Part shown: piece by piece, positions 10,239 to 39,830 of the stretch | Numbering within the stretch: position 1 is the first letter of the stretch | How the letters are laid out: the number at the start of each line of letters is the position of its first letter | IMG/VR virus record: IMGVR_UViG_3300031857_015149 | Location: 1-44,509 of that record | Reading direction: 5' to 3' (one strand) | DNA length: 44,509 bases | DNA from: a virus | Program-made: the position numbers and the translations under genes | The notes under the pieces: model-generated | Seen by the model: the letters and a program-made list of their open reading frames with translations, nothing else | Database searches by the model: none | Told to the model about the DNA's origin: nothing

Positions 10239-13200
10239 TAGTTATTCTCCAAATCTACCAAAGCTAATAGCATTCCTATGCTTAGTGCCTTAAAGTCCCA
10301 GTCAATAGGTTTAGTACTATCTAATCCAAAAATTCCAGTTATTTTTTTAGGATCAATCATATTAGTCATAGTATCGTCAGTATACCAAATGCCAGTAGCA
10401 ATATCCATATGAGGATCTTTATAGTATTCTCTGCTTCCACCCTTACCCGTGACTACAGTAATTCCATCGGGGGTAGTATATTTACCAATGTCTTCACCAC
10501 CAAATAAATCATCCATTCCATTAGTAAACACTTCAGTTGCATCTTCTCCCATGGAGAAAAGCCTGATATTTTTTTCATTTCTGCGTGGCCTATACTGCTT
10601 TAAAATATAAGGATTTACTATATTTGCATCAGAAAAACTACTAGATCCATCATCTGATTTAGTGTCACTAACGTAAGGTATTTCAAGTACAGGTTTTACA
10701 GTACCGTCATCATTTTTAATTCGATCATACGTAAAAGCATGCTCAATTGCTCTAATATCTTCGTTTACTTCTTGAACTAGATGCCATATTTCATGTAAAA
10801 AGTCTGAATGACTGCTTCCTCTGATAATTTTACTTCCGGTTTCCCTAGCCGTATATATGTGAGCTCTGGCTTCAGAAGGTTTAATTCCAATTTTTACTGG
10901 CCATGTAGAACCGGAAACCTTACCTCTAGAATCTATATACTCTTTAATAGAAGTAAGAACGGATTTAGGTATAGAGTCTAATGCTTTTTCAAATTCTTCT
11001 CTAATTTTGTCAGTAAGATCGTAATAGTCTTCTACTACACCATCCGTGCGGTTTCCGTAACGATTGTATGAGACTACAGGCTTTGTTTTACCGACAGTCT
11101 TAGTCATGTCAACTGAATCAAATTCTACTCCTAAATCTTGTAAAGATTTTTTAACTTCTTCAGCCACATATTCATGAACTTTTTTAGCAAACTTTTTTGG
11201 ATTTTGAATTGCAAAAGCTTCTTCCCTTAGAGATTTCAATTCTGCAGCCATTTTCTCTAATTCAGATGTATCTAGATAGCCCTTGTTAGTAGCTATAACG
11301 GTTAAAGCTTCGTACACTGTAGGGCCGCCATAATAATAAAAATTCTTCGAACCTATAAGTTCAGGATCATCTACAAGTACCCATTTACCTTTGACCCTTC
11401 TGATTCCAGATCTAGAACGTCTAGCTTCATCTTTTGCATCCGGAATCCATTCACTCTTTTTTGCACCAGTATCTAAAGCCTTAATATCTCCGTATTTTTC
11501 TTTAAAACCTTCTGAATTGAAACCGTCATTCTCCCAAGATTCTGCTTGGAAGACTTTCATTACCTCGTCAAAACGTTTTTCTTTTATTAAATCATTAAAT
11601 CTGGAAATAGCTGGATCATCTTGCACTTCTTCAAAAAATTTTTCTAGATCTTCTGGAGAAAGATTTTTAAATGCATTTTCTACTAAATCGTTTTTTGCTG
11701 CTTTAAATTTTTCTTTTTTAGATTGTATAACTTTAGACTTTTCACGGATTAAAAGAATTAGTTCAGCTCTATGCTGATCTACATCTATACCTTCTGGAAG
11801 TAGTCCTTCGCTTCTCAATCTATCTTCAACTACTTTTTTAACCTTATCTAATACCATATTACCAAGTGCGGTAATTTTATTTTTTAAGTCCGTTGCTTTT
11901 TGGGTAGGTATGTAAACTCTTTTATCATTTATATGTTTTGCACGGGCAGAATTTTGAATAGGAGCCGTTCTTTTAGCAGCTTGTATCGACATAATATTGT
12001 CAATAGGAAGTTTATGCTTATTAAATGATTTAGACGAATCATATTCGTCATACCGTTTTGTACCGTATGGATGGTACTTTTTGCCCATACGAATATCGTG
12101 GATAGCAATAATTTCATTAACTGCAGCTACAATAGCTTCTTTGTCCGGAGCGTCAGACGATCTTTCTTGCTTAGGAGAAGGTCCAGAGGACTCCTGAGCA
12201 GCTTTTTTGCGATTGTACATTTCAATTCGTGAATTTATAAACTCTGCAACTTCAGGGTATTTACCAATGCCGTCTTCAGAAATCATCATTCCAGCAAAAG
12301 CTTCAGCAATATATTCAGAGACGTCTGTTCCGGCATATTCTGTTAGAGGATACGCCATCATAAAGTACTCTATTTGTGAAACTTCTTCAATACTTTTAAA
12401 ATTAATTATTCCCCGTTGATGTAGGTAGTGACCTATTTCGTGAGCAATTGTTGATTCTACGTGGTCTATTCCAGGAATAACATTGTCAGATAGCTCATTT
12501 TTTATTTGCGCAAGATCCGGTCTAGATCCGTCTAGCATAGCCGAAAGAATCGAAGCATTAATAGTTATACGCGGATAAGAAGCATAAGCTCTTTTTAATA
12601 TAGCCCAACCTTGATCATCTTGATCCTCAGGCGTTAGCATTGGATCCATTTTTTGAGCCGTCAGTATAAATCTAGTGTTGTCTATAGAGAAAGGAAGTCT
12701 ATCAACAATTGCATCTAATCTAGTTGCAAAAGTTTTAATCATTTCATCTGATACAGGCCTAAATGAACTGCCAACGTTAGTTCTGCCTGCATAGAAATTA
12801 GGGTTGTTTATGTGACGTGTAATTTCTATTTCAATACCATTTTTTGAATTTTTATATCTGTGGCCAAAAGAAAGTCTAATATCTTTTTGATCGGCTTTCT
12901 TTAACAAAGGAATGATATGCAGAACTAAGAATGTCTCAATTTTTGGACTAGGGTACGGAGGAGTTTTTCCCTTAAGTAAGTATGCTAGCCAGGTTATAAT
13001 TTCTTTATATTGCTCATCGTCTATAGATGCATACTCTTTTGGAATAACATTTTCGGCTTTCCAATCAGATGCATCATCAAAAATTTCTGGAGCATTTACA
13101 TCTTTATTTGCAACAATTACTGCTCCGGCAAGATTTTTTAGTTCTTCATTAATCTTAAAGGAAGAAAGAGATGACTCTTCTTTTGGAGAAGGCCCCTTGA

Positions 13201-16200
13201 TCCAGTCATAGTTTTCCTTAGTGTCATCAATATTCAGCGGTTCTGGCTCAATGCCCGGAGCTAGAACGTCTTCTCTATTAAATACGTAAATAGGGTGCGC
13301 AGTTGCTATTTTATTTGGGTAAGCAGAAACTTTAGACTTATCTGCATTTTGTAGTTTTTTAGGACTATATCCATTTTCGTATTCTTTTGGATCTGTAGGT
13401 ATACCAGATTGAACTACAACAAATACAGGTACATACTTTCTTCCAACATCCAAAGCAGCTTTAACTCTGTGGTTTCCTTCTACAACTACAGCTAGATCAT
13501 TTTCTGGATCATAAGCAACTCTAATAGGTTCAAGAATGCCATCTTCAACACCTATTCTATAGTTAGGTTTTGCTTCAGTGTTGTTCCCCTTCATAGCTCT
13601 AAGAATCTTAGGTTTAACGTATCCAATTACCTTGTTTTCCGGTCCAATACCAATTCTTGGGAATGTGGTCTCGGAGTTTTCGTCAAGTTCTAATTCTGGA
13701 TCATTTTCTTCCATATATGCTTGCTGTAGAGAGTCAAGATCACGTTCAAAAGATCCTCTTTCTTGCTTTGGAGACGGGCCTTTACGATCTACACCAGAGT
13801 TGTGGTTAAGCAAGTCTATCGATGAAGATTCATTTTGTTTTAGATCATTTAGATATTTATCAATTTCTGGAAGAGCTTTTCTTAAGAAAAAGTCTCTTTG
13901 ACTAACAGGATCTCGCGAAACTACTTCATCGGCGAGCCAGCTACCAGTTTCTTTAGATTCAGAATCAGTACTATTCTTCATAGTTGCTGCCATAACTTTT
14001 CTTGGGTAGCCTCCTAAAAGAACAACTTCTCCCTCCCTAACAGATCCGAATCCTGTACCGGGCACAGAAAGTATTTGGCTTGCTGGAACTAAAGTAGCTA
14101 TAAGCAAAGGATTTCTAAACTCATTTTCTTCAGTAGCTGCCGCAAATCCTAGGGCAGTATTTGAATCAAATGACCAGGAAGACAGAGGTCTTTGTACAAC
14201 GTTTATCATTCCTACGCCAGAAGAATTAAAGTTTTCATCTCCTACAACGCTATCAATTTCATCTACTCCGGTGCCTCTATAAATTCTAACGTACTCAATT
14301 CCAAGATCTTCTATAAATTCTTGAGTGACCTTGTACATACTTCTAATAAAGTCTCGATATACCTGGAAATTAGAATCGTAGAGAGATTCTAGATCTTCAT
14401 CTCTTGCTTTTATACGAGCTCTTTGCTTTTGCTCGGGCTCTTTTTTAGAAAGTTTATACTTCCAATCAGTCCATAGCCCGTCTTCCATATCAAATTCTTC
14501 AGCAGCCGCTTTTTGTAAAGCTTGCGAAATCATTTCATCATTGGAAGAAAGAGCCCATTGCTTAATAAAAATTGCAGCTCCTGCGTTTCTCATAATTTCG
14601 TTAACATTAGGGTCTTGCTCGGATATAAGCTGCATGTCGTCAGACAGTTTATTAGTGTACCGCTTTAAAATTTTTGAAAGTTCTTCAGGCGAATATATTT
14701 TTCTATTGTCTTCATCTTTCTCATCATTGTACTTACTATCTTCAACTTTAAGAATGTCTCTCATGGAATAGAGGTACAAAGAGCTCTCTTCATTAGACAT
14801 AAATAGAAGCAAAGAGTCTTCATTTAAATTACCTAAATTAGTTGAGAAAGCTCTCATAACTAAGTCATAGTCACTAGACTCGTCTTCATTTTCCGCCATA
14901 ATATCTGTAACTCCATCAAGAATCCAGATATTCTCATCTTCTTCTGTCCAAGCAATAGACCTAAGTATGTTTTTTGCAGAAGATCTCATTTCCGATCCAA
15001 TTAGTGAAGCTGAAGCAATTTTTAGGTCAACTTCTCCGTTCGGAACTAACTCATAATTCCAAATTTCCCAGGCCAAATTCCAGTTATCGGTTGGGATATT
15101 CTTCCACTCTTTAAGCGGGTTGTTCTTTATAAATTTTTTCTTTACGGCACGCGAAAGAGCAGCTTTTTGAATTCTAAGAATATTACCTACAGTTGGATTT
15201 ACAGTCTCATCGTCTCCGCCCGTGTCTTGGAATGAAAGTTCTTTCTTAGGTGAAGGGCCCTTCTGCTTCAAGATTTCTTTAGAATCCGGGTTAATGTGAT
15301 CATCTGGATTAGAATCTACACTCAAAGAAAATGCTGAGCCCATTTCCGATAGTACGGAACTGTGGGATATTTTACCGGGAATGTACTGTCTAGCTGCGTA
15401 TAAAGCTGCTGTGGCAAGCCCTCTTCTTTGGTACGGCAGATTTGTGTACATAATTGAAATAGTAAGCCTATTGTTTTCTTTTTGTTCTTCTTCCTCTTTT
15501 TGAAAACGAACATACGAGACCATTGTATTACCGTAAGGAGTGTAATTATAATCTAGTTCAAGAAGGTTTTCTATTTCTTTTTCAGTTTTATTGTTTATAT
15601 CAATTACGGCAGAAAAAGATCTTTCAAGCATATCATTGACGTCAGTTATAATTAAATATTTTCTACCATACTTATCGGTGTATCTATTTGCATATCTTTG
15701 AATTCTATCATCTTCACCCGGAACAAAATTTACTACTTCGTTACTTGGTTCAAATTCACCGTTGTCAAATCTTTTAGATATGGTGTCAGTGTTTGTTTTT
15801 GAATTTAGATTAGGTTTAGAAGCAATACCAAGAAACCTTCTAATCTTCATCTCGACATTGGTTTTTAAAAGTTTTTTTGCAGATAAATAGTTTGAAGAAT
15901 CTTCTTCCCAGATTGTTAAAGCCTTTTTAAGTTCTTTTTCTCTTTCTTCGTAGTATTCAAGCTGTGTAATTTGATCTTTGCTCATCGGGGTACCGTCAGG
16001 CAGAGTAGTTGGGCTATAGTTAAAAACTTTTACAAGATCTACATTTGGATCAGATGGATCGAATGGCTCGGGTAAGTATCCTTTTTCTTGTTTTGGAGAT
16101 GGACCTTTATTAAGGTTTCTTGCTATAGCGGTGGTTTCTTGCATTTCTATAGATTTTGAATGAGTGTGTAATTTAGGATCAGCTTGATCTACAGAATTTG

Positions 16201-19200
16201 AGAAAGCAAAACCTCGTTTAGTAAGGGTACTCGAGTGCTGAATAGATAGATTAGATCTCTGTCTTGCAGTGTATAGGGCAGCTGTAGCTAGTCCACGTCT
16301 TGCATAGTTTTCTAAAGTAAGGACCATTGATATTTGATTATTTTTTACAGTTAATTCTGAAATCCAGTAATACTTTTTTGAATCTTGTTCTATGTCAGAT
16401 AAACTAACTTTTGATTTATCATATATTCTAACATCTACGTCAGAACCTACTAGCGTGCTGGTAACAATCCAATACTCTCTTCCATATTTGTCTGTGAATT
16501 CATCAATATATTGTTTATATGGAGTTTTATCTGCGAATAGTGAGAATGGAGCTTCACCCGCAGAACTAAACTTATTAGCAGGGGTTTGATCAATTAAATT
16601 GACTTGATTTTTAATTGTCTCGACGTTGGTTCTAGAATTTACGTCTGGCTTTGCAATAATACCTTGATATACGCTTCTTCTATTTGATATAGCTCCATCT
16701 CTTAAAACACCGCTGCCAGCGCTCTTAATTTTATCTTCAGCAACGTCCATAAGTTGCTGGTCCTTCCAATCAAACGGAGTACCGTCAGGCATTTTGGTGT
16801 AGTCATAGTTATAGAACTGCTCGAGATCGAAAAATGGGTCAGTTGGGTCGAATGGTTCTGGGAGATACTTAGGCTTTTTCCCGCCTTCTTCCTTTGGAGA
16901 CGGGCCTTTATTTTCAAAGTAAGAATCAGAATCTTGCCAGATTCGTCTTGACATTTCATTAGGCATACCTTCAGCAGCTGGCCTAGACATAAACCTAGAC
17001 AAATCTTGTCTTGATTCAAACATAGATAAAAATTCTGAGCTATTTGTTGGGAGATCCCAGCTGATAGTCTTTATCCAGTCAGAAGACTCTTCACTTGTGT
17101 CAAGATCTACAGATGGAATTGAAGCTTGTCTTTCTTGCTTAGGAGAAGGACCAATTTTTACTCCGCCAAGAATGTCAAAAATTAACTCATCTTGGTCAGA
17201 CGTAGAAATAAGTCCAGTCTTACCATCTGCAATCTGAGTAGATTCTTTTCCTGCTACTTGCATCACAAAATCCATGTCTTCTTCAGTTGTAAATCCTTTA
17301 TCTAGAATTTCAGGAAGCTTGAACAATGTTTCTCTTAATCTTCCACCAAGAACGACTACTTCTTTTTCTTGATCTGATCCAAAGCCTGTTCCAGGGAAAG
17401 CAATAACATCTTCTACAGGAATTTTCATACCTAAAAGAACAGGCATTTTAGTTGCATTTTTAGCTATAAAATCTTGAGCAACAACAGTACTTGTTGACCA
17501 AGAAGACATCGGTCTTAATCTTGAAAAAGCTTTAAATATTTTATTACTACGTTTGCTAGTTTCATCTTTTTTAACCGGAGACTTTCCTTCGTTTTGGAAC
17601 TCTATTTCTAAATCTCTATTTTTTGATGGATCTATGGCCTGAAGCTCAGAGAAGTTTGTACCTCTATAAACAACAATAGAATCGACACCGGATTCTTTAA
17701 ATGCATCCTGAGTAGAGTTATACATAGCATTTAAGAATCGAATGTAGATATCTCCGTTTTCTCTAATTTCGGCATCAATGGCATCCTGTACAGCAGCTAA
17801 AAACTCTTCATTGCTGTTGTAAGGACTTTTTTGTCCAGAACCTTCGGGTAAAAAGTCCCAATTTGAGTACGTTCCCTTACTCATTTTAAATATTCTAAAA
17901 ACAAGGTCTTGCATAGCGTGAGATTTTATGCTCATGTCGTTCGACGTTACTGCCCATAATTTTACTAAATGTCCAATTGCAACTAGTTTAATATCATTTA
18001 GATCTTCTTCTTTAGATCCAGAAAGTGGAGTATAAGTGTGAAGTTTTCTTTGACCCTCTGACATTTTCATAGTTGACATTCCCAGGTCATTTTTTATAAA
18101 ATCTAAAATTTCTTCAGACGAAAGGGCAGCTTCAGATACAATTCCTTTAGAATCTAAAACTGCATTAATAAGATTTCCATCTATTTTCAGTACTTCTATT
18201 TGAGGAATGCTGAATAGATATCCTTCAGTTGCTTTTTTAAGAACTATAGAATCACCTTTTTTTAGATTGGTTAAATCAGTATTTAACGCTTTTTCAAATT
18301 CTTCCATAGCTAATTCAGACATAGAAAAGTCTTCTTTTGTAATGTAGCCATTTCTACTAGTCCAATCAACTCTAGTAACAAATATCTCTAATCTAGACCC
18401 TTCAGTCATATATTTGTAAATAGGCTCTTTATCTAAATCTATTTTTCCAACATTTTTTTGGGATGCCGCAGCTTTAAGTAGTTTCTTTAAATCAACGTTA
18501 GGCATGTATCTTAATAGTCTTGTAGCTGTAATTCTCTTCATAGATGAAGGTCTTGTATCTGAATCCATAGCTATAGCATCTACGTCAGATTGTTGAATAG
18601 AGCCTTCAAACAATTCTCTTTCAGCAACATCGTTTTGAATCTTCGAAGTACTAGTTTCAGTTTTACCAGATCTCTCTTGTTTAGGAGAAGGACCAAACTG
18701 TTCATTCTTTGCAGCTTGAATGTCTCCAAGAACGTTGATGTTAGCATCATAAATTTCTCTTAGAATCTCGAGTTCATCGTCATTATCTTTAAACTTTTGA
18801 TTGATGTTTTTAAGCTCGTCGTACATTTTTCTAGCAGCAGCTTTAAATGAAGCTTTGCTAGATCCGCTTTCAAGTCTAAACTCTTCAACAATATTTTCAA
18901 GTTTTTCTCTAAACTGCTCTTTATTTTCTAAACTATCTTCAGATTTAATTTCTTCTTCAGTAAGTTTTTTAGCTTCGGCCTCAGAAACTTTAGCTGAGTG
19001 CTCCCTCATCTTCTTTTCTTGAACTTCTGCAGTGGCATCCTGATCCATTAAAGGATCTTCGCTGTCTGGTTTGAACAGATCGTAAATCATTTTAGGAACG
19101 TCTATAAAAGTACTACCATCTTCACTAGTAATTAAGTAGTATTTTACTGGTCCCCAGCTGTAAACGGTTTTGCCATTTATAGTTTGAACGTCTTTTAATC

Positions 19201-22200
19201 CTTGCGACTTTCTTCTTCCAAGAGCAACCCTTTGGTACAACTCTTGGTTAGTCATGATCTCGCCATTCCATCTAGTTAACTTTTCTAGGTGAGACCTAAG
19301 TTTTCCTCTATTAACTAGACTGAGACTACTTAAATCAATTGCGCCACCCTTTGTTTTCAAAACTAAGTTCGATGAATTTACAGGAGATGATTCAACTGCT
19401 TCATCAATTTTTTCTTCAGAAATTCCATCTTTTTCTGTAACTTCTGCAAATAAATTGTCAAAATTAAACTTTAAAGGGTCCTCCGGGGAGTATTCTCCAC
19501 TTTGTAAACCGTACCTAACATATCTATTTACTTGGCTAGAGGCATCTTTTAGTTTATTTATTCTATTTTTAGTTGCTTCCCTCATTTCATCAGAAAGATC
19601 GGGAGATCCTGCATACAAAGGTTCCTGTAATACTTCTCTAAAATCTTTGAGTTTTTCAAAAAGAGCAAATGAAGGGTACTTGGCTGCTAGTTCATCTTTT
19701 CTACGTTTAGTTTCTCGTTTAGTACTCTTTTGTTTTCTAATACGTTCGTACTCTTTATATTCCTCTGCAAACTGCTTCCAAGCTTCAATGTTGGCTAGAG
19801 CAGTTTTGTCGGTAATTTCTTTCTCTTCTTCTTCAGATTCTTCAGATTCTTCAGGTTCTTCAGGTTCTTCAGATTCTTCAGGTTCAAATGCGTCCGGACC
19901 TAAAACTAAAATACTATCAGACCTACGGCTAGAGTTCGTAACCCAGCCGTCTTCAAATATTGGTCTAAAATTATCTCTAAGCGGATTAAACTCTACTTCT
20001 ACTACTTTTCTAAACTCCCGCTCCGATTGCTCAGGGTTATTTAAATGTTCATCTTTGTGAGATTCTGGATAAAACAAAGATCTTTTAGCTAATACGTAAT
20101 CTCCAGGAGCAACGTCAAGTATATTTTTAAATAGAATTAAACCTTTTTCCTTTAAAGATTCTTTTAGTTCCTTGTGTTCTTCTGAAGCAAGGTTAGATTT
20201 GTTACTAAAAGCACTATTAATTTCTTTTTTTACAATTTTAGTTTTTTTAGAATCTTCTTCTTCAGATTCTTCTAGAATTTGTTTAGCTAATTTATCTGCA
20301 GCTTGACGTGCTTCGTCAGCTTCTACACTCTTCCCCTGTTTTTCAAGGAAATCGGCTAGATCATAAAGAGCATTCTGATTTTCATAGTCTCCTCTTAGAT
20401 TCGTTAATTTATAAGCTTCTTCTCTCAACCTAACTTCTTCATCGGTTGGATCAAACTTCTCAGATGGAATTCCTCTAGGATAGTTTCTTAGTATTTCTGC
20501 AGATTTATTTTCTGCTTCAGTATTTTCTGGAGTTGGCTCATGGTTATTCCATTTCCAACCAAAAGTTTTTGCTAATCTGTTAAATCGCTCAAATAAATCT
20601 GCTCTATCGTTTAGAGACATAAAGTTTGCACCTGTGGTACCCATTCCAGGTCGACCATGTGTCCCCATAAAATAATTGTGGAATTCTATATAATTTTGTA
20701 CTATTTGCTTCTGATTATCGTCAAGTTTGTCCCAAAGATCTGAATCAATCAGGGGTGGCACATCTGAACGTTCTGAAGAGGCTGGCTCTTTTTTAACAAG
20801 TACATTTATTCTGTCTGTTTGATCCAGATCAACATTCATACCCTTACCAACTGTAAACAGAATGCTCATCTTGGCGTCGTCGTGAAGACTAATGTATCTA
20901 ACGGTTTTATTACCGGTAGGTGTAACTACAACGTCCCCGACTTTTAAGTCAGATATTTTTATAGATTTTACTTCAAATTCTTCTTTTTCTTCTTCTTCTT
21001 CTTCTTCCCTAACAAGTATAACTATTCTGTCCATTTGATCCAGATCGATATCCACACTCTTAGTATCTGGAGAGATTGCATTATGGGGAAGTTCAGCAAG
21101 TAGGATATTAACTTTGCCGTCATTAGTAAAATTAATTTCCTCAACGAGTCTACTATCGTTATATGTTATTATAATGTCTCCAACTTTTAAGTCAGATATT
21201 TTTATAGATTTTATTCCAAAATCTTTTGGTGTAACACGTGCTTTATACCGCTTAATAAGCCACTCAGCCTCGTTAATTTCAGCCATGAGACGATCGTAAG
21301 TTTTCTGTTCTTCACCAGACAAGTCACGCTTCTCAGCGGCAGCCTGGTCAAGAAGAGCCTTAGCTTCTTCGTAAGCCTTCTTACGAGCTTCTTGCTGAAT
21401 CAAAATGTAGTCAGGCCAACTGTCTGAATCAAATTTAAGACCATATTTTTCTTTTAACTCTTTTTTGTTATTAACTCTTTTTTGTAATTCTTCTTTAGCT
21501 AAATTCTCGTCTTTATATGCATCTATTAAATTCCCGTATCCTAATAAAAGAAGTCCTTTATAATCTTTTGCTGTAATATCAAAATTCCGATAAGTATCAT
21601 CATAAGAAATATAAATTTCTCCGGGTTTAATCTCTTCACCAGATTCTACTAAACCTTTATCTAAAGTTACTTTTATAATTCGTCCATTTACATCATCCGA
21701 TTTATAATCAACCACATAGAGGGTATCCCCAGCCTTTGGCTTGTGCCCGTCAGCAGTAGTACCTTCGGTAGCCTCTCTACGGGCAGGATCCTTCCAGATC
21801 TCATATTGCTGAGCTAACCATTGCTTAGCTTTAGCGATAAGTTCGGGATCTTTATAGTAGCCATAGAGCTTTGTTTCTCTGTAATAACCATCTTTGTCTT
21901 CAAAATAGACACTAATTCCGTCAAGAGCATAGCCTTCGCCGGCGTACGTGTAGTAAACTTTACCCCAGAATTCCGCACCTTCTATTGGAACATCTCCAAA
22001 ACTCTTTTTTCCAGGAGGTTTTATATTCCAACCAAGTTTAAAATCGTCTCCCTCGCTGTTTTTTGGAGTTATGTCCTTTAGATCTACAAAACTGTCGTCA
22101 ATTTTTGTTTCGACTTGATTTAGAGCAATTGTAGGGTCATCGTCAGAGAATCTAACGGCACCTCCTATATGATCTAATTGTTTATCCGTGTAAGTTTTTT

Positions 22201-28869: not shown

Positions 28870-28886
28870 GTATATATCCTATGTCT

Positions 28887-29024: not shown

Positions 29025-29062
29025 AGGGTTAGCTCCTCAAAGATGGCATTAAATCTAGATAT

Positions 29063-29071: not shown

Positions 29072-29095
29072 AAAAATCTAAGTAAAGACTTAGAT
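29071..29095 (-). terminator. Intrinsic terminator after the 3522-residue protein unit
   Basis: On the minus strand ATCTAAGT, a CTTT loop and ACTTAGAT form a perfect 8-bp stem followed directly by a T-run (TTTTTGC). The stem is A+T-rich, so strength may be modest. It lies 26 bases after the stop of the 47-residue gene. Confidence 0.7.
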
Positions 29096-29121
29096 ATTTG
29101 CCGTCATATAGGGGATTATAG

Positions 29122-29265
29122 CTATTTCTCTTGGACGTCAATATTCGGGTAACGTCTAACTAGCTCTTTTATAGCTTCCTCGTCACCATCTTCAGCTAAA
29201 ACGGCTAGGGTCATGTCATCTAGCATGCTATAGTCTACTGAATCATGTCCATCAATAATAATCAT
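29122..29265 (-). CDS. Small hypothetical protein (47 residues)
   Basis: The ATG at 29265 overlaps the TGA stop of the 3522-residue gene (ATGA), with GGAGG eight bases upstream inside that gene, so it is translationally coupled. The product begins MIIIDGHDSVDYSMLDD and has a helical segment (LAVLAEDGDEEAIKELVRRY) like the one in the 65-residue protein encoded before the other giant. No family recognised. It is the last gene before the terminator. Confidence 0.75.
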   Translation of the reverse strand: MIIIDGHDSVDYSMLDDMTLAVLAEDGDEEAIKELVRRYPNIDVQEK

Positions 29266-32200
29266 TGAGGCATCCTCCATCCCTGATCCTTAGCAAAGTT
29301 ATTCATATAAATCTTATCTGAATCACTTAGTCCTGTTGAATCAAAACTTCCTCCGCCATCTACCCAGAAAGTAAAGGCTTCGGCATACCACTCGTCGGCA
29401 TTGTTTTTAGAGTATTCGCTTAAGTGAACTCTAGGTCTTCTCTTTTCAGCACCCATCAAAGAATCTCCTGCCCCATTCTTTTTATAGTAAGGTACTGTAA
29501 TTTGTCTTCTTGAAATACGTTCAATTATTTCTGTGACATTAGCAAAACGAAGTAGGTGGCCATATTCGTGAACAAGAATCATTTTAGTTATTGTAGCTAT
29601 TACAATCATTTTAGTTTTATTTGTGGATACAGCCATATGTTCACTGTTTCTATTCCCGAAAGGCTTAGCTCCAGTGTGTCTGTAGTCAGCCGCCCACGCT
29701 TCACGACGTCGGTTTTTTCCTACTTCTGAATTAACTCGAATAATCACATCCCCGTCGACATTTTCTTTATTAGGTTTGTGTAGCTCTGCTGCATTCTGTA
29801 AGAATCTATTTTTTATATTATCGGATAGTTTAGCTAATCCACCTTCAAAAGTAACAATTAAACCAGACGAATGCTCGTAAAACTCTAACTCATTTTTATT
29901 CGCTAAAGATTTATAGTACTTATGAGCCACATGATGTTTGTAGCTAAATTTTCCACTTGGAAGTTTTCCAAAAGATTTCTCCGCTAAAATGTCAGGTGCT
30001 TTAGATGCAGGTCGATATTTCCAGCCTGTAGGTAGATCTTTTGTACCAACTTTTGTAAGATTAATTGGAGAGTCTGGCCAACCTGTCATTTCTTTTCCCC
30101 AGCTAGAGACCGGTATACTATTTGCTGGAGAAGGTTTTCCACGTTTTCTTCTTGCTTTTTCTTGTCTAATTTGCTTCAAAAGTTCAAGAGCCGGTTTTCT
30201 TACCATAAGAGCATTAGCAAGAGTTCGGTCCCATTCTTTAGTAAGAAGCTCAAATTCTTCAAGTTCAAAGTCACTTAACTCCCCACGATCAACATCCCAG
30301 GCTAGCCACCGACTTGCCAGGGCTTCTGGATCTAAATAGCCGTATCGGAATCTCATATCTAGCTCAGCATACCTTGCGGTTTTAATCTCTTCTCTCTCAT
30401 AACTGCTCAAAGATCGGTTAGCTACTTCAGATACTTTCTTAATTCTACGCTCAAACTCATGAATTTGGGGGGACTTGCTAGTCCCCTCCTGTTTTGGGGA
30501 TGGACCACCGCCTCCACCGTTTAAAGCAGCCTTAAGATCTTCAAGAATCTTTACTCTATCAGCTGGATCAGCGAGGCTGATGCTCCAGTTTCCAGCTTTT
30601 CTGTCCCAGAAAAACGAGAATGGAATCTTCTTTCCGTTAGGAATAATTGATAGAGCTGTAATGATATCTTTAACAGAGTAAGTGTCTCCCATCAAGAAGA
30701 TTCGGTTGCCTTCGATTCGGTAGTTTACTCCACCTCCAAGACCTCCGGAAGTTCCGTCTTCTCCGGTAATAGGAGTTTCAGGCATAGACTCTACTTCAGT
30801 TTTCTTAGTAGGATCGTACTCTTCATCTGGATTATCTTCATACCAGCCAGCAAGAATGTGATCCACTCCCTTGCTTGCCAGAGAGGCAGCTTCCATCAAA
30901 ACGCTAGGGTCATCTTGCAAGAATCTCTTCCAAGACTGTACATAAGCAGCAACATTTTCGATGCTGGTTTTGACTCCAAACATAGAGGCTAGAATAGCAG
31001 AACCAATCTCTGCAATAAGTTCTTCGCGAGCTCTAACATCTTTATGTTGACCATAGTTCTCTAAAAGATCTTTTCTATCTAATCTAGATGGGTGACCGGT
31101 GCTGTGAATTAGCTCATGGAACAGGGTGTCTAGATGCTCCTCTGTACTCTTAAATTGGTGTCTAAGCGGAAGTCTAATTGTGTCCTTCTGAGGTGACCAG
31201 TAAGCCTCCTCTTGTGGCCAGTATATTATTCGTGGTTTATCTTTATAAGAATTTAAAATAATATCTTCAACTTCATGCTGAGGCGGTGGATCTTTTATAA
31301 TCATTGGAGGTATAGTTATACCCTTTACAACGTCTTCGTTATATACAAAGTCAATTTCTAGTCCAGTTCTAACACGAGTACCGTCATCTGGTTTTTCTTC
31401 TCCAGTAACGGGATCAATAACGGTTGAGCCTGGCTTAGGATTTACTTTTGATTTATACTTAACAACTTTAATGATGTCAACAGCATCATTCGAATCTACG
31501 TAACCACCCATTTTTGCAATTGCATTCTTGGTGTACCAACGAGTTCCTTGGTAATCTCTTTCCTGAGATATAAACAGAAGTTTAATTAAGTTAATACCCT
31601 TATAGTTTTTACCAGTTGCACCAGAAGTAGGCCACACCCAAGCAACATCATCAGTCCAAGGTTTCTTCCAAGGAATAATTCCCTTGTCCATAGCTTCGAT
31701 AATTCCCTTTAGAACTTCATCTACAGCTTCCTTGTTCTTTTTGACGTTCTTTGGACCTTCTTCTTTTGGAGATGGACCTAAGTCTTCAAGATCCTTGTTA
31801 GCAAAGATGCTAGTAGAAATATCAAAGATATCAGCTCTGTTTACAACCTCAGAGATTCTAACAAACTGATCACCGTTATCTTCGGTAACAAGTTCAACTC
31901 TCTTATTAGGTAGGGCTGACTTAAGCTGAGCCACATATTCTTCTGGGTCTAATCCGTTTGGAATAGGATCTAGCAATCCATCTTCTACTTCAGCAGCGTA
32001 CCTCTCAGTTGCATTTATTGCAGCTTCAAGTTCTTTAAGGCCGCGCTCTCCTCCAGGGTACCTAGGATCGCGAGAGATTGGCTCTAGAGACATCTGGTAG
32101 TTGTACTCGGCTTCCATTGCTTCTGTGTAGGCCTTATCTGCCTCTTCAGGAGAGACAATTTCTTGAGTCTCTACTCTTCTAGAAACCGGTCTTTGAGCAG

Positions 32201-35200
32201 AGTCAGATCTAATTACATCAGCAATCATGCTCACAGCCGAGTCTTTAATGTTCTCTGGATTTTGATCATCGTTGTTAGAAGCTCTAAATATCTCTGAGCC
32301 ATTTCTATTTACAGTGATTGCATCGTTAGTTATTTCAGCAGAATAGATTTCATCTGGAGAGTTCCAAGTGTGTTTGTATTCATCACCTGAAGGACCGCCA
32401 AGATATTCGGTGTTCCAGCCAGAATTGTAGTTGTAATCTGAAGATTTTTCCTGCTTAGGGGAAGGACCCTTATCAGATTCGGCTTTTTGATCGGCCAAAG
32501 TTTGTAGATATTCTTTACGCTTTTGCTTGTATTCTTCGGCATTCTCAATAAAGGTGTCAACTGCTCCGGGATCTAACTCGCTCATAGTTCTAGTTACTCC
32601 AACGTAAAGAGCATTTAGAGTTTCTGTAGAGAAAGGTCTAGGCATCTCGCCTTTTTCTATAGACAAAGTGTCTTTCTTAGAGTGTGGTTTTGGAATATCT
32701 GAACCTAGTCTGACTCTTTCTGACTCAAGACCCTTAGCTCTGTGAATAGTGAGAATTACAACATCAACGTCTTTACCGCTCAAGGCATCAACTAGTTCAT
32801 TAAGCTGCTGCTTTCCATCGCCTCTTACAGGAAGAGTGAAGTCCCAGGTCTTTCCAGTATCCCAGTTATAGCCTAGAGACTTAAGAACATCCGAGTGGTT
32901 TCTAGTTCCGTTGTTAGGATTCTTTAGCTCTGGTGCCCAAGGTCCTAGTCTTCCAGTAGTAAATAGTCGAATAAGACCGTCTTTGATCTCGTAGCTGATG
33001 TAGTTTCCGATATCACCACTGGTTCCCCAGTTATCGTCCTCTGGCTTAAAGAATCCTTCAATACCAAAGATTCTTGCTCTGTCGATAATTTTTTGAATTT
33101 CTGTAAAAACATCAGACATTTTTGAAGGTCTTTTTTCAGCTTCAAGTCTAGACTTAGTGTCATCTAGAATTTTTAATAGCTTACCTACAGGAACATCTTT
33201 GGTTTCTTCGTAGATTTCAAGCATTTGCTTCCAGTCATCGTAACCGTCTAGATCTTCGTGAGGTTTTGAAGGACGCTTCTTAGGATCCGATCCAAACCAG
33301 AGCCACTTAGCTGTAGACATAAATGAGTTCATGTCATACTTAAACTCTCTAGTTACTCCAATAGTCTGGCCTCTAGAAATGGCTGGAACTATTTCAGAAA
33401 GTGCTCCAGCATTTGTCATAGTAAGAATCATGGTTGCATCAATCATTGATCCTGGAGTCAAGACTTCGCTATCCTTGTCAGGATTTCCAACTAGACGTTC
33501 ATCATCTTCATCTTTAATATCAAGAAGAATGTTTGCATAGTCAGCCACTTTTTGACCAGCTCTGAACATCTTGGTTAGAGGCAAAGTTGCATCTCTTAGG
33601 AACTTTGAAAGGCTGTTTATTGCTCCACGGAACTGATAGATAGACTGGTGAGGATCTCCAACAACAACCAATTGAATTCCGTTGTTGTGAAGTTCTTGTT
33701 GCTCAGCAATCATTCTATAGAATACGCCGTTAACATCCTGAGCCTCGTCAATCATAATTGTTTGAGGAATTGCTCCTAGTCCGTGGAGGCTTTCTCCCTT
33801 TGAATTAGTAGCAGTTAAGTCAGGGTGAGTCAAAGCAAAGTTCTTCATCATATCGTTAAAGTTAACTGCAATTTGTCTTCTACCTGGATCGTGAGGCTCT
33901 AGCTTGTCGTCCCACATTTCTTTAGCAACTCTTAGCATTTCTGGAGTATAGCCTTCGTCTCCACCTTTTTTTCTAGGTATAGTACCGCTGAAATGCTTTT
34001 CAGACATTTCGTCATCTCCACTTACAACCCAGTTGTGTAGACCTGCAAGAGCTATTTTTATAAACAAGAATTTAGAAATTTTAATACCGTTAGCTAGCTC
34101 AACTTCGTCTTTAATCTTGTAGTAATCAGCCAAATCTGAGAATCCATAGATAGGTCTGTTTCTAGATTCAGTTTGCTTCTGCATAGCACTAAATTTTCTA
34201 TACAACTTAGCATTAGCCGAAGCAGTTACCGAAATAGAGTCCATAGTTCTTACTTCAGCATTTGCAGGGAATTTTCCTCTAAGTTCAGTTGCAATCGCCT
34301 TGTTAAACGCTAGTACAAGGATTCTTCTGCCTTTATCGTAGTGGAATATAGCCTTTGCTCCACCAATTAGAGTCGAGCTCTTTCCAGTTCCAGCTAAAGC
34401 CTTAATAACAATAGACCAACCACGGATCATTGCTTCAATAGCGTTTCTTTGCTGTTTAGTGTAGTTTTTTTCTAGGAAAGAGATGTCATGCTGAGTTTCC
34501 TCAAGTTCGCCGGCATTCTTTCTATCAGCAGGGCGCTCTTCTTTTGGAGACGGGCCTTTATCATCTCTCTTGCGGCGGTCAGGGAATCTTTTATCTTGAT
34601 ATTCATTGACTTTGTCTAAAAGTTCTGTAGGAATTCTAAGTCCAGCTATATCTAGATCATTTGCCATATAAAACTCTACTTGAGCGATATCCATCTCTTT
34701 GATGATATCGCCAATTTCGTTTCTATTAAGATTTGGAAGTAGGTCCCAGATCTCGTCGGCTCTTTGTTTAGGAATTATCCCTCTAGGATCAAGCAAACGT
34801 CTTTCAACGCTCTTCAACTGTTTTGGAGTTGGAGGTCTTATGCCATTTTGTATATCTTCCATAACATTGCTAATAGTTATTGGCTGATCGTCATTATCAT
34901 CGTTGTTAGGCGGTGGAGTAGAGCTTGGCTCTGATGGAGTGCCTTCAACATCTTTAGCCCCAGCTAAGTTGGTTGCTGCATCTATAAGATCTTGCTCACT
35001 AACAGGGTTACCGTTAGCAGCTCTTTGAACAGCCATCTTAGCCATAAAATCTATAGCTCTAGTTAAGAAAGCTTCAAATCCAACTTTGTATTTTGCTAAC
35101 TTTTCATCATAGTCGTTATCGGAGGCATTAAGATCAAAAACATCATCTGCAATTTTTTCGCCGCCATTTATAGCTCTATTAAAGATAAGATCTAGTAGCT

Positions 35201-38200
35201 GTACGTTTACGTCCAAGTCGTTTTCAGAATTGTGAAGATCCTTGAATGGAATACCTTCATACAATGCCAATGCTTCAATGCTTGTAGATTTTGTTGGACC
35301 AAAGGCAAACGTTTTCCACGGGCCTCTTGGATCTTTTTTACTCCACTCATTGTAGATGTGGTCGGCTAAACCAAGAGTGTCAACCATTCCAGCTGGAACA
35401 TATTCTTCCAGTCCGGCTTCTCTAAGAGTTCTGTTAAGCACCTCAAGGTCGAAATCAGCAACGTTGTGGCCAGCTAGTACTGCATCTTTTCCTAGGAACT
35501 CAACGGCTTTGGCAATAACTTCAGCTTTATTTGGCAAACTTGCTAGCCATTGTGCGCTAATTCGATTGCCTTTATCATCTTTAAGATTTGCTTTTGACCA
35601 TTTGCTTAGAGGAGAGTCAGGGTTCATGTATGAAACAAATTTATCAATTACAACGCCATCTTTGACCTTGTAAATTGCTATTTGAATTGGATCATTTTTA
35701 ATATGAGGCGCTAGTGGACTTGGCACACCGGTAGTTTCAACATCAAAAAAGAAAAGAGTTTTACCTGAAAAAGCTTCCTTGGCTTCAGACCAGGTCTTGG
35801 CTCCAGAAACCCAGTCTCTAACTATTCCCCAAAAAGCCTTAGGCTTTACACGTTTTGGCGGCTGAGGCCTGTTTGGGTGGTCAGAATAGTCTGGATCATC
35901 ATTCGAGGTTTCAGGTTCTGGATCAGAGCTAGGAACAAACTCGGTGTTGGAAGAAACAGCATTTTCATTTGGAGCATACTCTCCATTTGGATCGTACTCG
36001 TAAGGACCGTTGTGATACCCGTCCCTACCAATCAGATCTCCCATTAGAGAAGCTGCGTCTTCAAGGATTCCCATAGTCTTAGACTTTGGATTACGAATTC
36101 GTCCGTAAGTGTGGGCTTTGTCCGAATCGGTAAGACCCTTTCTAATGGTCTCCAGTCTGTCCATAACTTTCTTAGGACTGATTACATATTTGATACGTAG
36201 ATCAATCATTCTCTTAAGATCGTTGGCATCTGCAATTGCACCATCAAGAATTCTTCTACCATCAGCATTTACAGAATCTCTCTGCCTTGCTAGGTGAGCA
36301 ATCATTCTGTTAAGTGCGTATCTAGTTCTACGTGCAGCATTTCTTCTTGCAGCTCTTGAAGCAAACTGCTTCACTTCTTGCTCATCTTGCCAGTCAGCAA
36401 GAATCTCTGCTCTAGCAGCATCGTTAGGCTCGTAGCCTTCCCAGCCTTCAGGAGGGGTGGCTCTACCGATTAATGAAACAAAATCTATGTCATTAATATC
36501 TTGACCATCTTCAATTGCTTTTTTAATAAGAATACTGTCGTGGGCATCTTCTCTAGCTTTGAGCTCGCCCATGATGTACTTACTCACTTCCCATCTATTC
36601 AGCTTAGGAAGAGCTTTTTGAATCTTTGCAATTTCTGCATTAGTTGCTAGACCTTTGTCAAAAATACGTTCCATGCTGGCGATCATTCTGTCGCTTGCGC
36701 CATCAATTTCGTTTGGAACTAGGCCATACTTACCCTTAGGGCTATACTCTGGTTTGAATGGGTAGGCTTTAAATGTGTAGTACCACTCACGAATCTCTTT
36801 AGAGTCCATCCACTCATAGTTATCTAGAAACTCTTGTCTCTCGGACTCAGGGATTTGTCGGTCTTCTAAGAATCTTTCAATTCCAGCAAGCTGGCCATCG
36901 CTAGGACCGTAGTTTTCTGGAGAAAGTTTAGAAACTAAATACTTAGGCTTTTCTGAAGGTAGATCTCTCCACTCATCGCCAGGACGGAACGGTTCGTCAC
37001 CGGTTTTTTCTTTCTTGCCTCTTCTAGCTTCATCTTCAGCTCTGGCTTGTTCTAGCTCATCAATTTCTTTTTGAGTCATTGCAGGGGCTGGCTTAGGCTT
37101 ATAAGGAAGACTGTTTATCTTTTCTAAGATTTCACCAAATTCGGACTTATTAATTTCATTTTTAAGAAGACGCTTAGTGAGCTCTGCAGCTTCGTCTCTT
37201 CTCCAAATTCTGGTTTTAAGAGCCCATTCAAGGGTTTCTTTTTGCATCCAAGTAAGCTTCTTTTGATCTTCCTCACTAAGAGCTTTAAAATTTTGTTCAA
37301 TATAAACGCCTAGATCATTAACTTCTCTAACTGTATATTTTCCAGGATTCTTTTTAATGTCTCTAACTTTTGCAATTAGATCTGTTTCACCCTGAACAAA
37401 GTGACTATTTAAAATAGCTACTAAACGCCAAACTTGAGCTTCATTTGGCTCCAAGTGATCATTTGCTCTATATTTCTTATTTTCTTCTTTAGGAGATGGA
37501 CCTAGGCTTACTCTTCTTCTGTTCTGGTTCCTGATGAAATCGTCTACAGCAGTTGCAAGTTTTCCAACAGTGTAAAGCTCGTCGGTAATCTTATTCTTAT
37601 CTACATTCTGTATTAAGTACATCTGATACAGAGCTTCTTCAAGGGCATCTGCTGTTTTTTGAGCACTTCTTCCGTTTGTAATATCAAAATCTTTGAATGA
37701 ATCTAGCAAGCTAAAGTTGGACAAAATCTCTGGCCTAGGAAATAGTTTTTGCAAAGCTAGAGTCAGAACTTTATTTCTATCTTGACCTTTTTGAACAGGT
37801 ATGTTGTCTAGAATATTGCCTCTTGAATCTGCTATACGAATCTGATCAATGCCGTTTTCTTGAACAAGAGTTGCAGTTATATCTCTAAATTTATTTAGAT
37901 AGACGCCGTTACTGTTAAACTTTTCTTCTTTGCCGGTGCCAGGGAAAAATCTTTCTAGAAACTCAGCAATAATTGCATCTGATTTTGTAATCTTGTTTGA
38001 ATCCGGACCAAAGTAGTCATACTCAAATCTTTCCGATGGATCAAACTGAGCATACATTTTTCTGTGGTTGTATGGAACCTTAGCAATATTTGGGTTAAAT
38101 AGTGGATCTAAAGCTTCCAGTTCTTCAATAGCTTTAACTTGCTCGGAAACCATCTCCCATGTGAAGAACGGTAGATCAAACTTTTTAGTAAAGTCACCAT

Positions 38201-39830
38201 TATCGTCTCTCTCATATAGAGAGTAAACGTTGTTGGCGTAAATAGGAGTAAATCTAATTTCTCCAGTTAGCTCGTCTAGAGAAGATTCTAGGCCGGCTTC
38301 ACCAAAACCATAGTCAACCTTAAATCTTCTATTCTTTGACAGATAGCTGCTAGGTCCAATCTTTGTCCAACCCTGAGGCAAGTTCTTATCTGGGTCATCG
38401 CCAGTGTAAGGAAGAACGTTTTCATCTTCTGGAGTAAATCCTCTCTCTTCCTTTGGAGAAGGTCCCTTAGCTGCCACTGGACGTTCATCTTGAACAATGA
38501 TCTGGTTCTCTTTATCACCAAATCTTTCGTCTTCCTCACCGGCTATTTTTTGTACTCTAGCCCAGTCTTGGGTAAATGCAATTGGAGTACTGCCCTTACC
38601 ACGCTTTGATGCCCACAAAATGTATAGTGGATCTGACCAGTCAATATTTTCGGTTCCGTCTGTACCAACTACATCTAGCTTGTCGCCATACAGATCTTTA
38701 ACCATTTCAAGAAACTTTTGATTAGTGTCTTTTGTCTTTTCATTTTTACTAGGGTTAGCAATATAAGAAACTTCATATCCGTCAGCAGATACGTAGTACT
38801 TTGCGTCAGAAGGTTCTTTGCCAGCAAGTGCTTTATTGGTTGGAGCGTAAGGAGATTTGACCCAGCCCTCTGGAGATTCAACGGCTACTAAGTCGCTAAT
38901 GTCAATAAAGTTTCCATCTGTAACATCTGCGATAGCTTTGTCAATCGGAAGATTTTTTACAGCTTCTGCTGGAAGAATTGCCATAACTGCTTCAAAGAGA
39001 TTGGCTGGAATTCTATAAATTCCATCCTTTAGTCCAGGAACTCCCTTAATTTCAAAATCTATGAAACCCTGTTCTGTAGAGTAGCCAGCTACACGTCCAG
39101 GTACGCTTTGAATTTTTCCGGTAGGGAATTTAACATTTACTGTTCCCCCACCGCCCATTTCAATCCAGCGACCCTTAGAGTCACGAAGCTGACGCTTTGC
39201 ACGAAGCGAACGCCAGTAGCTCGAGTTCTTACCAGCAAATACTGAAGACTTAAATAGTCCTTTTAGTTTCCCCCATAAACCAGCTGTGATCGGGCTAAGA
39301 AGTAGATCCCTTGGAACTGACCCCGCAGGGAGAGCCGAGAGTCTTGCATAGGCGTGCTGAAATTGAACTTCAAAAGGATTTGAACTGTAAACAGATGCAA
39401 CCAGTGATCTAACTTCATCGTCTTCAATTCTAGGATCTGCGGCATACCATTCTCCGCGCTTTTCTCTAAACTCAGAAACGCTTAGAGTGATTTCTGCGCT
39501 CGAGCTTGGGTGATATTCAGGAAGCAGATCGGTGTTTCTGTCAGAACCATTTGGACGTGGACCTTCTGTAGAAAGAGTAACAAAGTGAGCAAGTTCTCTA
39601 AAAACGTTAAAATATCTAACCTCGGTAGTAAGGCCATCAGAAGCAGAGGCAGCCAGTGCTCTTATAGCAACTTCTTCTAGCTGATCTTCTGTAACTCTAC
39701 GTATCTCGTCAACTCTTGCGTTTTGCTCAAGAGTTAAGTTGAAGATCAGTTCGGATACAGAAACTTCATCTGGGTTACTTACAGAAAGTAGATCATCAAA
39801 CTGATCGATTGGGTTGAATTCGTTGCTCAC
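29262..39830 (-). CDS. Giant 3522-residue polyvalent protein with exonuclease, helicase, ArdC and zincin
   Basis: GTG start at 39830, 14 bases after the previous stop; only a weak ribosome site (AGAAAG). Domains: RDSKGRW 216-222 followed by a small beta module; unrecognised region to about 1350; DEDDh exonuclease 1355-1545 (Asp1363, Glu1365, GHNVADFDLEVL, His1533); UvrD-like SF1 helicase 1780-2430 with Walker A LAGTGKS (Lys1817), IDEAQD (Asp2028, Glu2029), GDPHQSIYQFRG, TIHRAKGLE and YVGVTRT (Arg2414); ArdC, made of a DUF1738-type ssDNA-binding part from about 2700 and a metallopeptidase with HELIH 2905-2909 and REELIAEIGS; C-terminal zincin HEYGH 3421-3425 with EWYAEAF. Six GPSPK motifs bound these units. 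All helicase and ArdC motifs are intact. Genes for portal and maturation protease on either side support packaging in the head; protection of incoming DNA from restriction is the likely ArdC role. Confidence 0.88.
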   Translation of the reverse strand: MSNEFNPIDQFDDLLSVSNPDEVSVSELIFNLTLEQNARVDEIRRVTEDQLEEVAIRALAASASDGLTTEVRYFNVFRELAHFVTLSTEGPRPNGSDRNTDLLPEYHPSSSAEITLSVSEFREKRGEWYAADPRIEDDEVRSLVASVYSSNPFEVQFQHAYARLSALPAGSVPRDLLLSPITAGLWGKLKGLFKSSVFAGKNSSYWRSLRAKRQLRDSKGRWIEMGGGGTVNVKFPTGKIQSVPGRVAGYSTEQGFIDFEIKGVPGLKDGIYRIPANLFEAVMAILPAEAVKNLPIDKAIADVTDGNFIDISDLVAVESPEGWVKSPYAPTNKALAGKEPSDAKYYVSADGYEVSYIANPSKNEKTKDTNQKFLEMVKDLYGDKLDVVGTDGTENIDWSDPLYILWASKRGKGSTPIAFTQDWARVQKIAGEEDERFGDKENQIIVQDERPVAAKGPSPKEERGFTPEDENVLPYTGDDPDKNLPQGWTKIGPSSYLSKNRRFKVDYGFGEAGLESSLDELTGEIRFTPIYANNVYSLYERDDNGDFTKKFDLPFFTWEMVSEQVKAIEELEALDPLFNPNIAKVPYNHRKMYAQFDPSERFEYDYFGPDSNKITKSDAIIAEFLERFFPGTGKEEKFNSNGVYLNKFRDITATLVQENGIDQIRIADSRGNILDNIPVQKGQDRNKVLTLALQKLFPRPEILSNFSLLDSFKDFDITNGRSAQKTADALEEALYQMYLIQNVDKNKITDELYTVGKLATAVDDFIRNQNRRRVSLGPSPKEENKKYRANDHLEPNEAQVWRLVAILNSHFVQGETDLIAKVRDIKKNPGKYTVREVNDLGVYIEQNFKALSEEDQKKLTWMQKETLEWALKTRIWRRDEAAELTKRLLKNEINKSEFGEILEKINSLPYKPKPAPAMTQKEIDELEQARAEDEARRGKKEKTGDEPFRPGDEWRDLPSEKPKYLVSKLSPENYGPSDGQLAGIERFLEDRQIPESERQEFLDNYEWMDSKEIREWYYTFKAYPFKPEYSPKGKYGLVPNEIDGASDRMIASMERIFDKGLATNAEIAKIQKALPKLNRWEVSKYIMGELKAREDAHDSILIKKAIEDGQDINDIDFVSLIGRATPPEGWEGYEPNDAARAEILADWQDEQEVKQFASRAARRNAARRTRYALNRMIAHLARQRDSVNADGRRILDGAIADANDLKRMIDLRIKYVISPKKVMDRLETIRKGLTDSDKAHTYGRIRNPKSKTMGILEDAASLMGDLIGRDGYHNGPYEYDPNGEYAPNENAVSSNTEFVPSSDPEPETSNDDPDYSDHPNRPQPPKRVKPKAFWGIVRDWVSGAKTWSEAKEAFSGKTLFFFDVETTGVPSPLAPHIKNDPIQIAIYKVKDGVVIDKFVSYMNPDSPLSKWSKANLKDDKGNRISAQWLASLPNKAEVIAKAVEFLGKDAVLAGHNVADFDLEVLNRTLREAGLEEYVPAGMVDTLGLADHIYNEWSKKDPRGPWKTFAFGPTKSTSIEALALYEGIPFKDLHNSENDLDVNVQLLDLIFNRAINGGEKIADDVFDLNASDNDYDEKLAKYKVGFEAFLTRAIDFMAKMAVQRAANGNPVSEQDLIDAATNLAGAKDVEGTPSEPSSTPPPNNDDNDDQPITISNVMEDIQNGIRPPTPKQLKSVERRLLDPRGIIPKQRADEIWDLLPNLNRNEIGDIIKEMDIAQVEFYMANDLDIAGLRIPTELLDKVNEYQDKRFPDRRKRDDKGPSPKEERPADRKNAGELEETQHDISFLEKNYTKQQRNAIEAMIRGWSIVIKALAGTGKSSTLIGGAKAIFHYDKGRRILVLAFNKAIATELRGKFPANAEVRTMDSISVTASANAKLYRKFSAMQKQTESRNRPIYGFSDLADYYKIKDEVELANGIKISKFLFIKIALAGLHNWVVSGDDEMSEKHFSGTIPRKKGGDEGYTPEMLRVAKEMWDDKLEPHDPGRRQIAVNFNDMMKNFALTHPDLTATNSKGESLHGLGAIPQTIMIDEAQDVNGVFYRMIAEQQELHNNGIQLVVVGDPHQSIYQFRGAINSLSKFLRDATLPLTKMFRAGQKVADYANILLDIKDEDDERLVGNPDKDSEVLTPGSMIDATMILTMTNAGALSEIVPAISRGQTIGVTREFKYDMNSFMSTAKWLWFGSDPKKRPSKPHEDLDGYDDWKQMLEIYEETKDVPVGKLLKILDDTKSRLEAEKRPSKMSDVFTEIQKIIDRARIFGIEGFFKPEDDNWGTSGDIGNYISYEIKDGLIRLFTTGRLGPWAPELKNPNNGTRNHSDVLKSLGYNWDTGKTWDFTLPVRGDGKQQLNELVDALSGKDVDVVILTIHRAKGLESERVRLGSDIPKPHSKKDTLSIEKGEMPRPFSTETLNALYVGVTRTMSELDPGAVDTFIENAEEYKQKRKEYLQTLADQKAESDKGPSPKQEKSSDYNYNSGWNTEYLGGPSGDEYKHTWNSPDEIYSAEITNDAITVNRNGSEIFRASNNDDQNPENIKDSAVSMIADVIRSDSAQRPVSRRVETQEIVSPEEADKAYTEAMEAEYNYQMSLEPISRDPRYPGGERGLKELEAAINATERYAAEVEDGLLDPIPNGLDPEEYVAQLKSALPNKRVELVTEDNGDQFVRISEVVNRADIFDISTSIFANKDLEDLGPSPKEEGPKNVKKNKEAVDEVLKGIIEAMDKGIIPWKKPWTDDVAWVWPTSGATGKNYKGINLIKLLFISQERDYQGTRWYTKNAIAKMGGYVDSNDAVDIIKVVKYKSKVNPKPGSTVIDPVTGEEKPDDGTRVRTGLEIDFVYNEDVVKGITIPPMIIKDPPPQHEVEDIILNSYKDKPRIIYWPQEEAYWSPQKDTIRLPLRHQFKSTEEHLDTLFHELIHSTGHPSRLDRKDLLENYGQHKDVRAREELIAEIGSAILASMFGVKTSIENVAAYVQSWKRFLQDDPSVLMEAASLASKGVDHILAGWYEDNPDEEYDPTKKTEVESMPETPITGEDGTSGGLGGGVNYRIEGNRIFLMGDTYSVKDIITALSIIPNGKKIPFSFFWDRKAGNWSISLADPADRVKILEDLKAALNGGGGGPSPKQEGTSKSPQIHEFERRIKKVSEVANRSLSSYEREEIKTARYAELDMRFRYGYLDPEALASRWLAWDVDRGELSDFELEEFELLTKEWDRTLANALMVRKPALELLKQIRQEKARRKRGKPSPANSIPVSSWGKEMTGWPDSPINLTKVGTKDLPTGWKYRPASKAPDILAEKSFGKLPSGKFSYKHHVAHKYYKSLANKNELEFYEHSSGLIVTFEGGLAKLSDNIKNRFLQNAAELHKPNKENVDGDVIIRVNSEVGKNRRREAWAADYRHTGAKPFGNRNSEHMAVSTNKTKMIVIATITKMILVHEYGHLLRFANVTEIIERISRRQITVPYYKKNGAGDSLMGAEKRRPRVHLSEYSKNNADEWYAEAFTFWVDGGGSFDSTGLSDSDKIYMNNFAKDQGWRMPQ
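30483..38465 (-). repeat. Six GPSPK[QE]E motifs in the 3522-residue protein
   Basis: Copies begin at residues 456, 777, 1759, 2455, 2685 and 3109 (nucleotide starts 38465, 37502, 34556, 32468, 31778 and 30506, reading leftward). They fall at domain borders: just before the helicase (1759), just after it (2455), just before ArdC (2685) and just before the last zincin segment (3109). Codon choice differs between copies. Confidence 0.95.

Follow-up and report, generated by a model that had tools for sequence, protein, structure and literature searches.

The closest described counterparts of the locus reported here are the polyvalent proteins of phages and conjugative elements, for which Iyer et al. 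(2017; PMC5512222) proposed that MPTase zincins act in processing. According to the parts of that account considered here, the virion RNA polymerase of phage N4, a giant ejected protein with an MPTase domain, is packaged unprocessed, and DdrB of phage P1 is cut. On the same account, it is an open question whether the giant polyvalent proteins of phages are divided into working parts, and how.

The DNA analysed here, hereafter the window, is a 44.5-kb IMG/VR fragment (44,509 nucleotides) that carries a tailed-phage head module. All window features given below lie on the minus strand, where the gene order is an HTH protein, the portal protein (41024-42823), a protein in which a ferritin/Dps-like domain is fused to DUF5824 (39844-41007), a 3522-aa giant (29262-39830) and a 6144-aa giant (10238-28672). 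Downstream head genes follow, namely a 1509-aa capsid maturation protease, an S78/MuF-type fusion (5046-9575), the major capsid protein (MCP; 2897-4900; phrog_777, 1.1e-80), a 364-aa protein (1721-2815) and a tail protein. This order is shared with the isolated actinobacteriophages DSL-LC01, Microbacterium phages Cece and Pumpernickel, Arthrobacter phage Atuin and Gordonia phage Forza, in which smaller multidomain or large proteins occupy the position of the giants. About 20 enzyme-like modules are chained in the two giants, with one short peptide recurring between them. By their predicted domains and neighbourhood, both giants are phage polyvalent proteins, a known class. Indeed, disparate activities are combined in one polypeptide (exonuclease, helicase, ArdC-N and MPTase by Pfam/PHROGs, ART and GNAT by motif), a zincin-like MPTase-PolyVal domain, characteristic of this class, is found in the 3522-aa protein (PF18818, 1.5e-29, residues 2685-3108), and the genes lie between the portal and the capsid protease/MCP, as in DSL-LC01, Cece, Atuin and Forza. 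This gene context suggests that the giants are located in the virion. Their N-terminal segments (38466-39830 in the 3522-aa giant, with RDSKGRWIEMG, common to giants of the phage group; 27920-28672 in the 6144-aa giant, with RDRFGRWVEMG) carry an RDxxGRW[IV]EMG domain that starts most giants of the group, including those of Cece and Atuin, and that is a candidate head-targeting part, which the first motif copy would split from the cargo.

The recurring peptide is GPSPK[QEK]E. The first-pass annotation of the window had counted 18 copies, 12 in the 6144-aa and six in the 3522-aa ORF, and this count proved exact; all are on the minus strand, and a six-frame translation of the window gave none outside the two giants. 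In the 6144-aa protein, GPSPKQE occurs at residues 252 (27899-27919), 3327 (18674-18694), 3841 (17132-17152), 4190 (16085-16105), 4965 (13760-13780) and 5497 (12164-12184), GPSPKEE at residues 624 (26783-26803), 3923 (16886-16906) and 5160 (13175-13195), and GPSPKKE at residues 613 (26816-26836), 1708 (23531-23551) and 4472 (15239-15259). The 3522-aa protein has GPSPKEE at residues 456 (38445-38465), 777 (37482-37502), 1759 (34536-34556) and 2685 (31758-31778), and GPSPKQE at residues 2455 (32448-32468) and 3109 (30486-30506). A 19th near copy, YPSPKIE, was present inside the 5160-5496 segment of the 6144-aa protein. For PSPK alone, a Poisson estimate of reaching this count by chance was about 10^-28; the reversed-pattern control gave zero matches, and EM motif finding reached a log-likelihood ratio (LLR) of 299-317, whereas locally shuffled sequence did not exceed 80. 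Each of the four Gly codons and each of the four first-Pro codons is in use, as had been claimed, and the 18 DNA copies all differ, with a codon choice near genome usage and a slight excess of identical codons (p 0.004 in the relative G004). The motif forms a conserved island in variable linkers, which, together with this codon choice, bears out the earlier view of a border marker under selection at the peptide level.

Every database-supported domain match (Pfam/PHROGs) falls between motif copies, and GPSPK[QEK]E was confirmed as a border motif between modules. The better-defined modules that had been called from the sequence were recovered with database support: an RNase_T-like exonuclease in residues 252-612 of the 6144-aa giant (26837-27919; PF00929, 9.1e-12) and another in residues 777-1758 of the 3522-aa giant (34557-37502; PF00929, 7e-13), followed in the latter by a UvrD-like helicase in residues 1759-2454 (32469-34556; PF00580, 6.9e-17; phrog_1967 covers 1755-2453) and by ArdC-N (PF08401, 3.6e-15) plus MPTase-PolyVal in residues 2685-3108 (30507-31778). 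Other calls were weaker. A pair of GNAT-like segments linked through a motif copy (15260-16906), with an RRGLAT motif, gave Pfam matches at threshold and a low-confidence fold match; two ART-like segments (17153-18694, with invariant R, SSWS and ExE; 13781-15259, with invariant R, S-x-W and ExE) showed the invariant R / S-x-W-S / ExE pattern but had no database match; and the ParB-like call stood at an E-value of 0.1. The other putative zincins were recognised by HExxH, with one M78 match at 0.027: HEYGH in 29265-30506, HEIGH in 12185-13195, HEMGH at 25994-26008 within residues 624-1707, and HEIWH in the C-terminal segment of the 6144-aa giant (10241-12184), a candidate reader of the motif. 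The 1084-aa segment 23552-26803, which holds HEMGH plus further modules, was matchless in 50,697 phage records. The annotation had also described the segments as holding one domain each. Domains do lie between copies, but the segments 1708-3326 (1619 aa), 624-1707 and 777-1758 hold more; two copies are 11 residues apart, and the segment 3841-3922 has 82 aa only. An AF2 model of the two GNAT-like segments, poor overall (pLDDT 54), shows two similar folds, and the middle copy falls between them, in the longest run of low confidence (224-278). Where relatives differ by large indels, some of these match motif-bounded units, with edges within 20 residues of a motif, and many others lie far away.

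Relatives were sought as 64 loci encoding relatives of the protease, with head modules completed for the longest. Compared at the sequence level, they showed GPSPK[QEK]E to be one dialect of a lineage-specific border code, a specificity that a reader of one window could not see. Dialect A, GPSPK[EQK]E, is used by the window (18 copies), G004 (about 20) and G005 (eight, including three GPSQKEE); dialect B, PSQNRE, by G001, G002, G003 and G008 (7-16 copies each); dialect C, GFxQx[PA]G, by G011 and L129 (about 20 copies each); dialect D, Px[LF]MxF, by G007, with a few copies in G006; dialect E, NIAPDAEG, by L197 (six copies); and dialect F, V[NS]YAP, by G024 (L089/L062; six copies). Dialects are never mixed, each genome being homogeneous for one motif at the linkers of its giants. 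The final Glu is invariant in dialects A and E, nearly so in B, and not invariant in C, D and F. The methods used gave no such motif in about nineteen other lineages, several of which have Pro/Glu/Thr-rich linkers instead; since the EM finder missed V[NS]YAP in G024, which a gapped-pattern list caught, these motif-less calls may include misses. GPSPK and any comparable repeat were absent from the isolated relatives DSL-LC01, Cece, Atuin and Forza, and a scan of 2.9 million viral contigs found GPSPKEE in multiple copies in G004 and G005 only, and otherwise as single matches. Among head-module proteins besides the giants (MCP, portal, protease), none carries the dialect A or B motif. Two further features of the relatives' head genes were observed. 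The capsid-protease ORF of the NIAPDAEG phage (L197:12574-15849) has about eight GAWxT repeats around two LysM-like stretches (YVVQKGDSLWSIA), and the portal matches of G010, G019, G020, G021 and G029 span one in-frame TAA, which may reflect read-through, recoding or alignment over a gene end.

The change between dialects A and B was concerted. At 16 orthologous border positions of the aligned giants, GPSPK is found in the window, G004 and G005, and PSQNRE in G001, G002, G003 and G008, never mixed; the GPSQKEE copies of G005 are intermediates between the two. The protease tree separates, with good support, the window and G005 from a group formed by G004 and the dialect B genomes (98% SH-aLRT), and G004 is also closer to the latter by portal, protease and MCP identity, yet it uses dialect A, so the motif is not drifting with overall divergence. 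Between the window and G004, identity is 90% in the motif, 34-37% in the flanks and about 50% in the modules; between G004 and G002, it is 44% in the motif and about 70% in the modules. A motif kept amid diverged flanks within a dialect, and a change that peaks at the motif between dialects, strongly imply a trans-acting reader. On these alignments, the motif behaves as a recognition site does when its reader has changed, and unlike a linker with a passive role or a DNA element spread by copying. A lineage-specific reader of the motif is thus very probable.

From a mechanistic point of view, GPSPK[QEK]E would be a linear recognition site at the module borders of two virion-directed polyvalent polyproteins, all copies of which, in both giants, would be recognised by a phage-encoded reader; reader and sites would co-evolve, giving each phage lineage its own site sequence. 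The likeliest act would be to cut the modules apart by proteolysis, whether while the head assembles, inside the head or once the proteins are ejected, and we regard such cutting at the motif as fairly probable. The likeliest cutters would be the HExxH zincin-like domains that these polyproteins themselves contain, to which we give a chance just short of even. For the lineages with GPSPK, PSQNRE or NIAPDAEG, the leading candidate would be the C-terminal zincin-like domain of the second giant.

Zincin-like domains are indeed associated with the motif. HExxH occurs in the giants of every motif lineage and in two of the 20 others (Fisher p 0.0014); one of these two, G024, was later found to carry its own motif, and its reassignment gives p 1.4e-4, a post hoc figure. 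The C-terminal segment (10241-12184) is the only compared giant segment whose divergence follows dialect, with 44-54% identity within A, 34-36% from A to B and 29-34% to E. Between G004 and the B genomes, it is 34% identical, versus 69-72% for the neighbouring segment and up to 87% for other shared segments. In the scan of 2.9 million viral contigs, this segment was seen in A, B and E genomes only, and these sole carriers are the dialects that end in Glu. H464, E465 and H468 of its alignment are invariant in seven homologues, L197 having HEFWH. A fold search with the segment (residues 5497-6144; AF2 model, pLDDT 63) gave no PDB match with an E-value below 0.001 and a weak M61 match at rank 9, and the PDB sequence search returned Enkurin and other unrelated matches only, the best to the N-terminal helical part. 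With hhalign, HExxH fell on HExxH, weakly, for G024 alone among the other zincins; the V[NS]YAP giant of G024 (L089/L062) ends in this HExxH domain. Several points count against the zincins as readers. The C-terminal segment is missing from the C and D genomes, where reading of the motif would fall to a different zincin or to something else; the A/B switch is a single branch, on which the 364-aa capsid-like gene (1721-2815) changed too; several other giant segments also evolve fast; and longer giants hold both zincins and a detectable motif more readily.

Other readers have to be weighed against this. The motif could be where the capsid maturation protease (5046-9575) cuts, on the model of T4/phiKZ-like heads, in which a prohead protease cleaves head and ejection proteins after x-x-E. 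Here, the protease gene adjoins the giants, and a Glu ends dialects A, B and E; the SPN3US protease gp245 cleaves after A-X-E, with several sites in certain proteins (PMC10052503), and DarA of P1 is a substrate of the P1 head protease (PMC12810830). We nevertheless consider this unlikely. No more than 14 of the 1499 columns of the protease follow the A/B switch, mostly as conservative changes, including those in the S78-like region; the N-terminal region of the MCP, the presumed main substrate of the protease, hardly differs between A and B and is free of motif copies; and motif-less relatives have the same protease and giants. The annotation had named this protease as a possible cutter, a role that it fits less well since it barely changes across the GPSPK/PSQNRE switch, and had suggested cleavage after the invariant Glu, which is not supported as a rule for all dialects, an invariant Glu being absent from C (GFxQxPG), D (PxLMxF) and F (VNYAP). 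Docking was another of its suggestions: a partner in the capsid, scaffold or portal would hold each linker and so pack the chain in the head, with no cutting. This would account for one site per module and for co-evolution with a single partner, and the 364-aa capsid-like protein is 43-50% identical between A and B genomes, versus 75-86% within A. However, A, C and D genomes, despite their unrelated motifs, share this protein at 71-84% identity, which disfavours it as a general reader, and portal and MCP do not track dialect. Docking also leaves the link with zincin-like domains unexplained, and we judge it improbable. As regards the 364-aa gene itself, the divergent version occurs in all PSQNRE genomes, and G006 and G007, distant in core genes, keep an 83-84% identical copy, a distribution suggestive of horizontal exchange of one head protein.

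Two readings that dispense with a phage reader appear far less probable. The motif might be a by-product of module shuffling, as linker DNA that is copied or seeds recombination; module number and order do vary between relatives, some indel edges lie near motifs as noted above, and identical codons are slightly above expectation. However, existing orthologous sites changed in concert, almost every copy has its own DNA sequence, serine is encoded by TCN as well as AGY codons in relatives, and many large indels lie far from motifs, so this reading was already disfavoured; gene conversion or shared DNA as the source of the motif was set aside, the codon test being near null. A host factor such as a host protease, with dialects mirroring different hosts, would also give concerted switching, and the nearest isolates infect Actinobacteria, but the association with phage-encoded zincin-like domains speaks against it, and we hold it to be very unlikely. 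As for the roles first proposed for the motif (protease site, docking, or hinge for unfolding through the portal), the processing site is best supported, and the hinge leaves the concerted sequence change unexplained. The preferred reading, cutting by embedded zincins, could extend to self-processing polyproteins, in which an embedded metallopeptidase would cut its own giant and, in trans, the second one at up to about 20 lineage-private sites, site and protease switching together as mutually orthogonal protease-site pairs in related phages; this extension is possible, and we advance it tentatively.

Polyvalent giants are known, and the switching border code appears to be unreported, no report of it having been found in the limited literature searched. 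A border code whose copies are all rewritten together identifies the sites, allows the fragments to be predicted and provides natural dialect swaps as controls, and its visibility and joint switching make the cutting question directly testable. If the cutter is an embedded zincin, a family of orthogonal proteases with short sites would be available ready-made in related phages. In addition, the motifs offer a ruler for delimiting modules in unannotated giant proteins.

Compared with the polyvalent proteins as Iyer et al. (2017; PMC5512222) describe them, the giants of the window are alike in being large multidomain proteins adjoining virion genes, with ArdC-N, MPTase zincin, ART, GNAT, ParB-like and helicase domains; within the parts of that description considered here, what sets the present proteins apart is a border motif that recurs, is homogeneous across each genome and has lineage dialects. 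T4/phiKZ-type prohead proteolysis, exemplified by SPN3US gp245 and its A-X-E sites, likewise uses one short motif at many sites of head and ejection proteins, and the A, B and E dialects share its Glu end. There, however, the same protease cuts the MCP and propeptides, whereas here the motif lies between enzyme modules, is absent from MCP and protease, and varies by lineage without a matching change in the head protease. The N4 virion RNA polymerase is also a giant protein with an MPTase domain, but differs in that it is reported to be packaged uncut, and we know of no border motif in it. In polyproteins of the picornavirus and retrovirus type, the protease is embedded in its own substrate and the sites co-evolve with it; those are RNA or reverse-transcribing viruses of eukaryotes, unlike the dsDNA phage and the putative injected effectors considered here.
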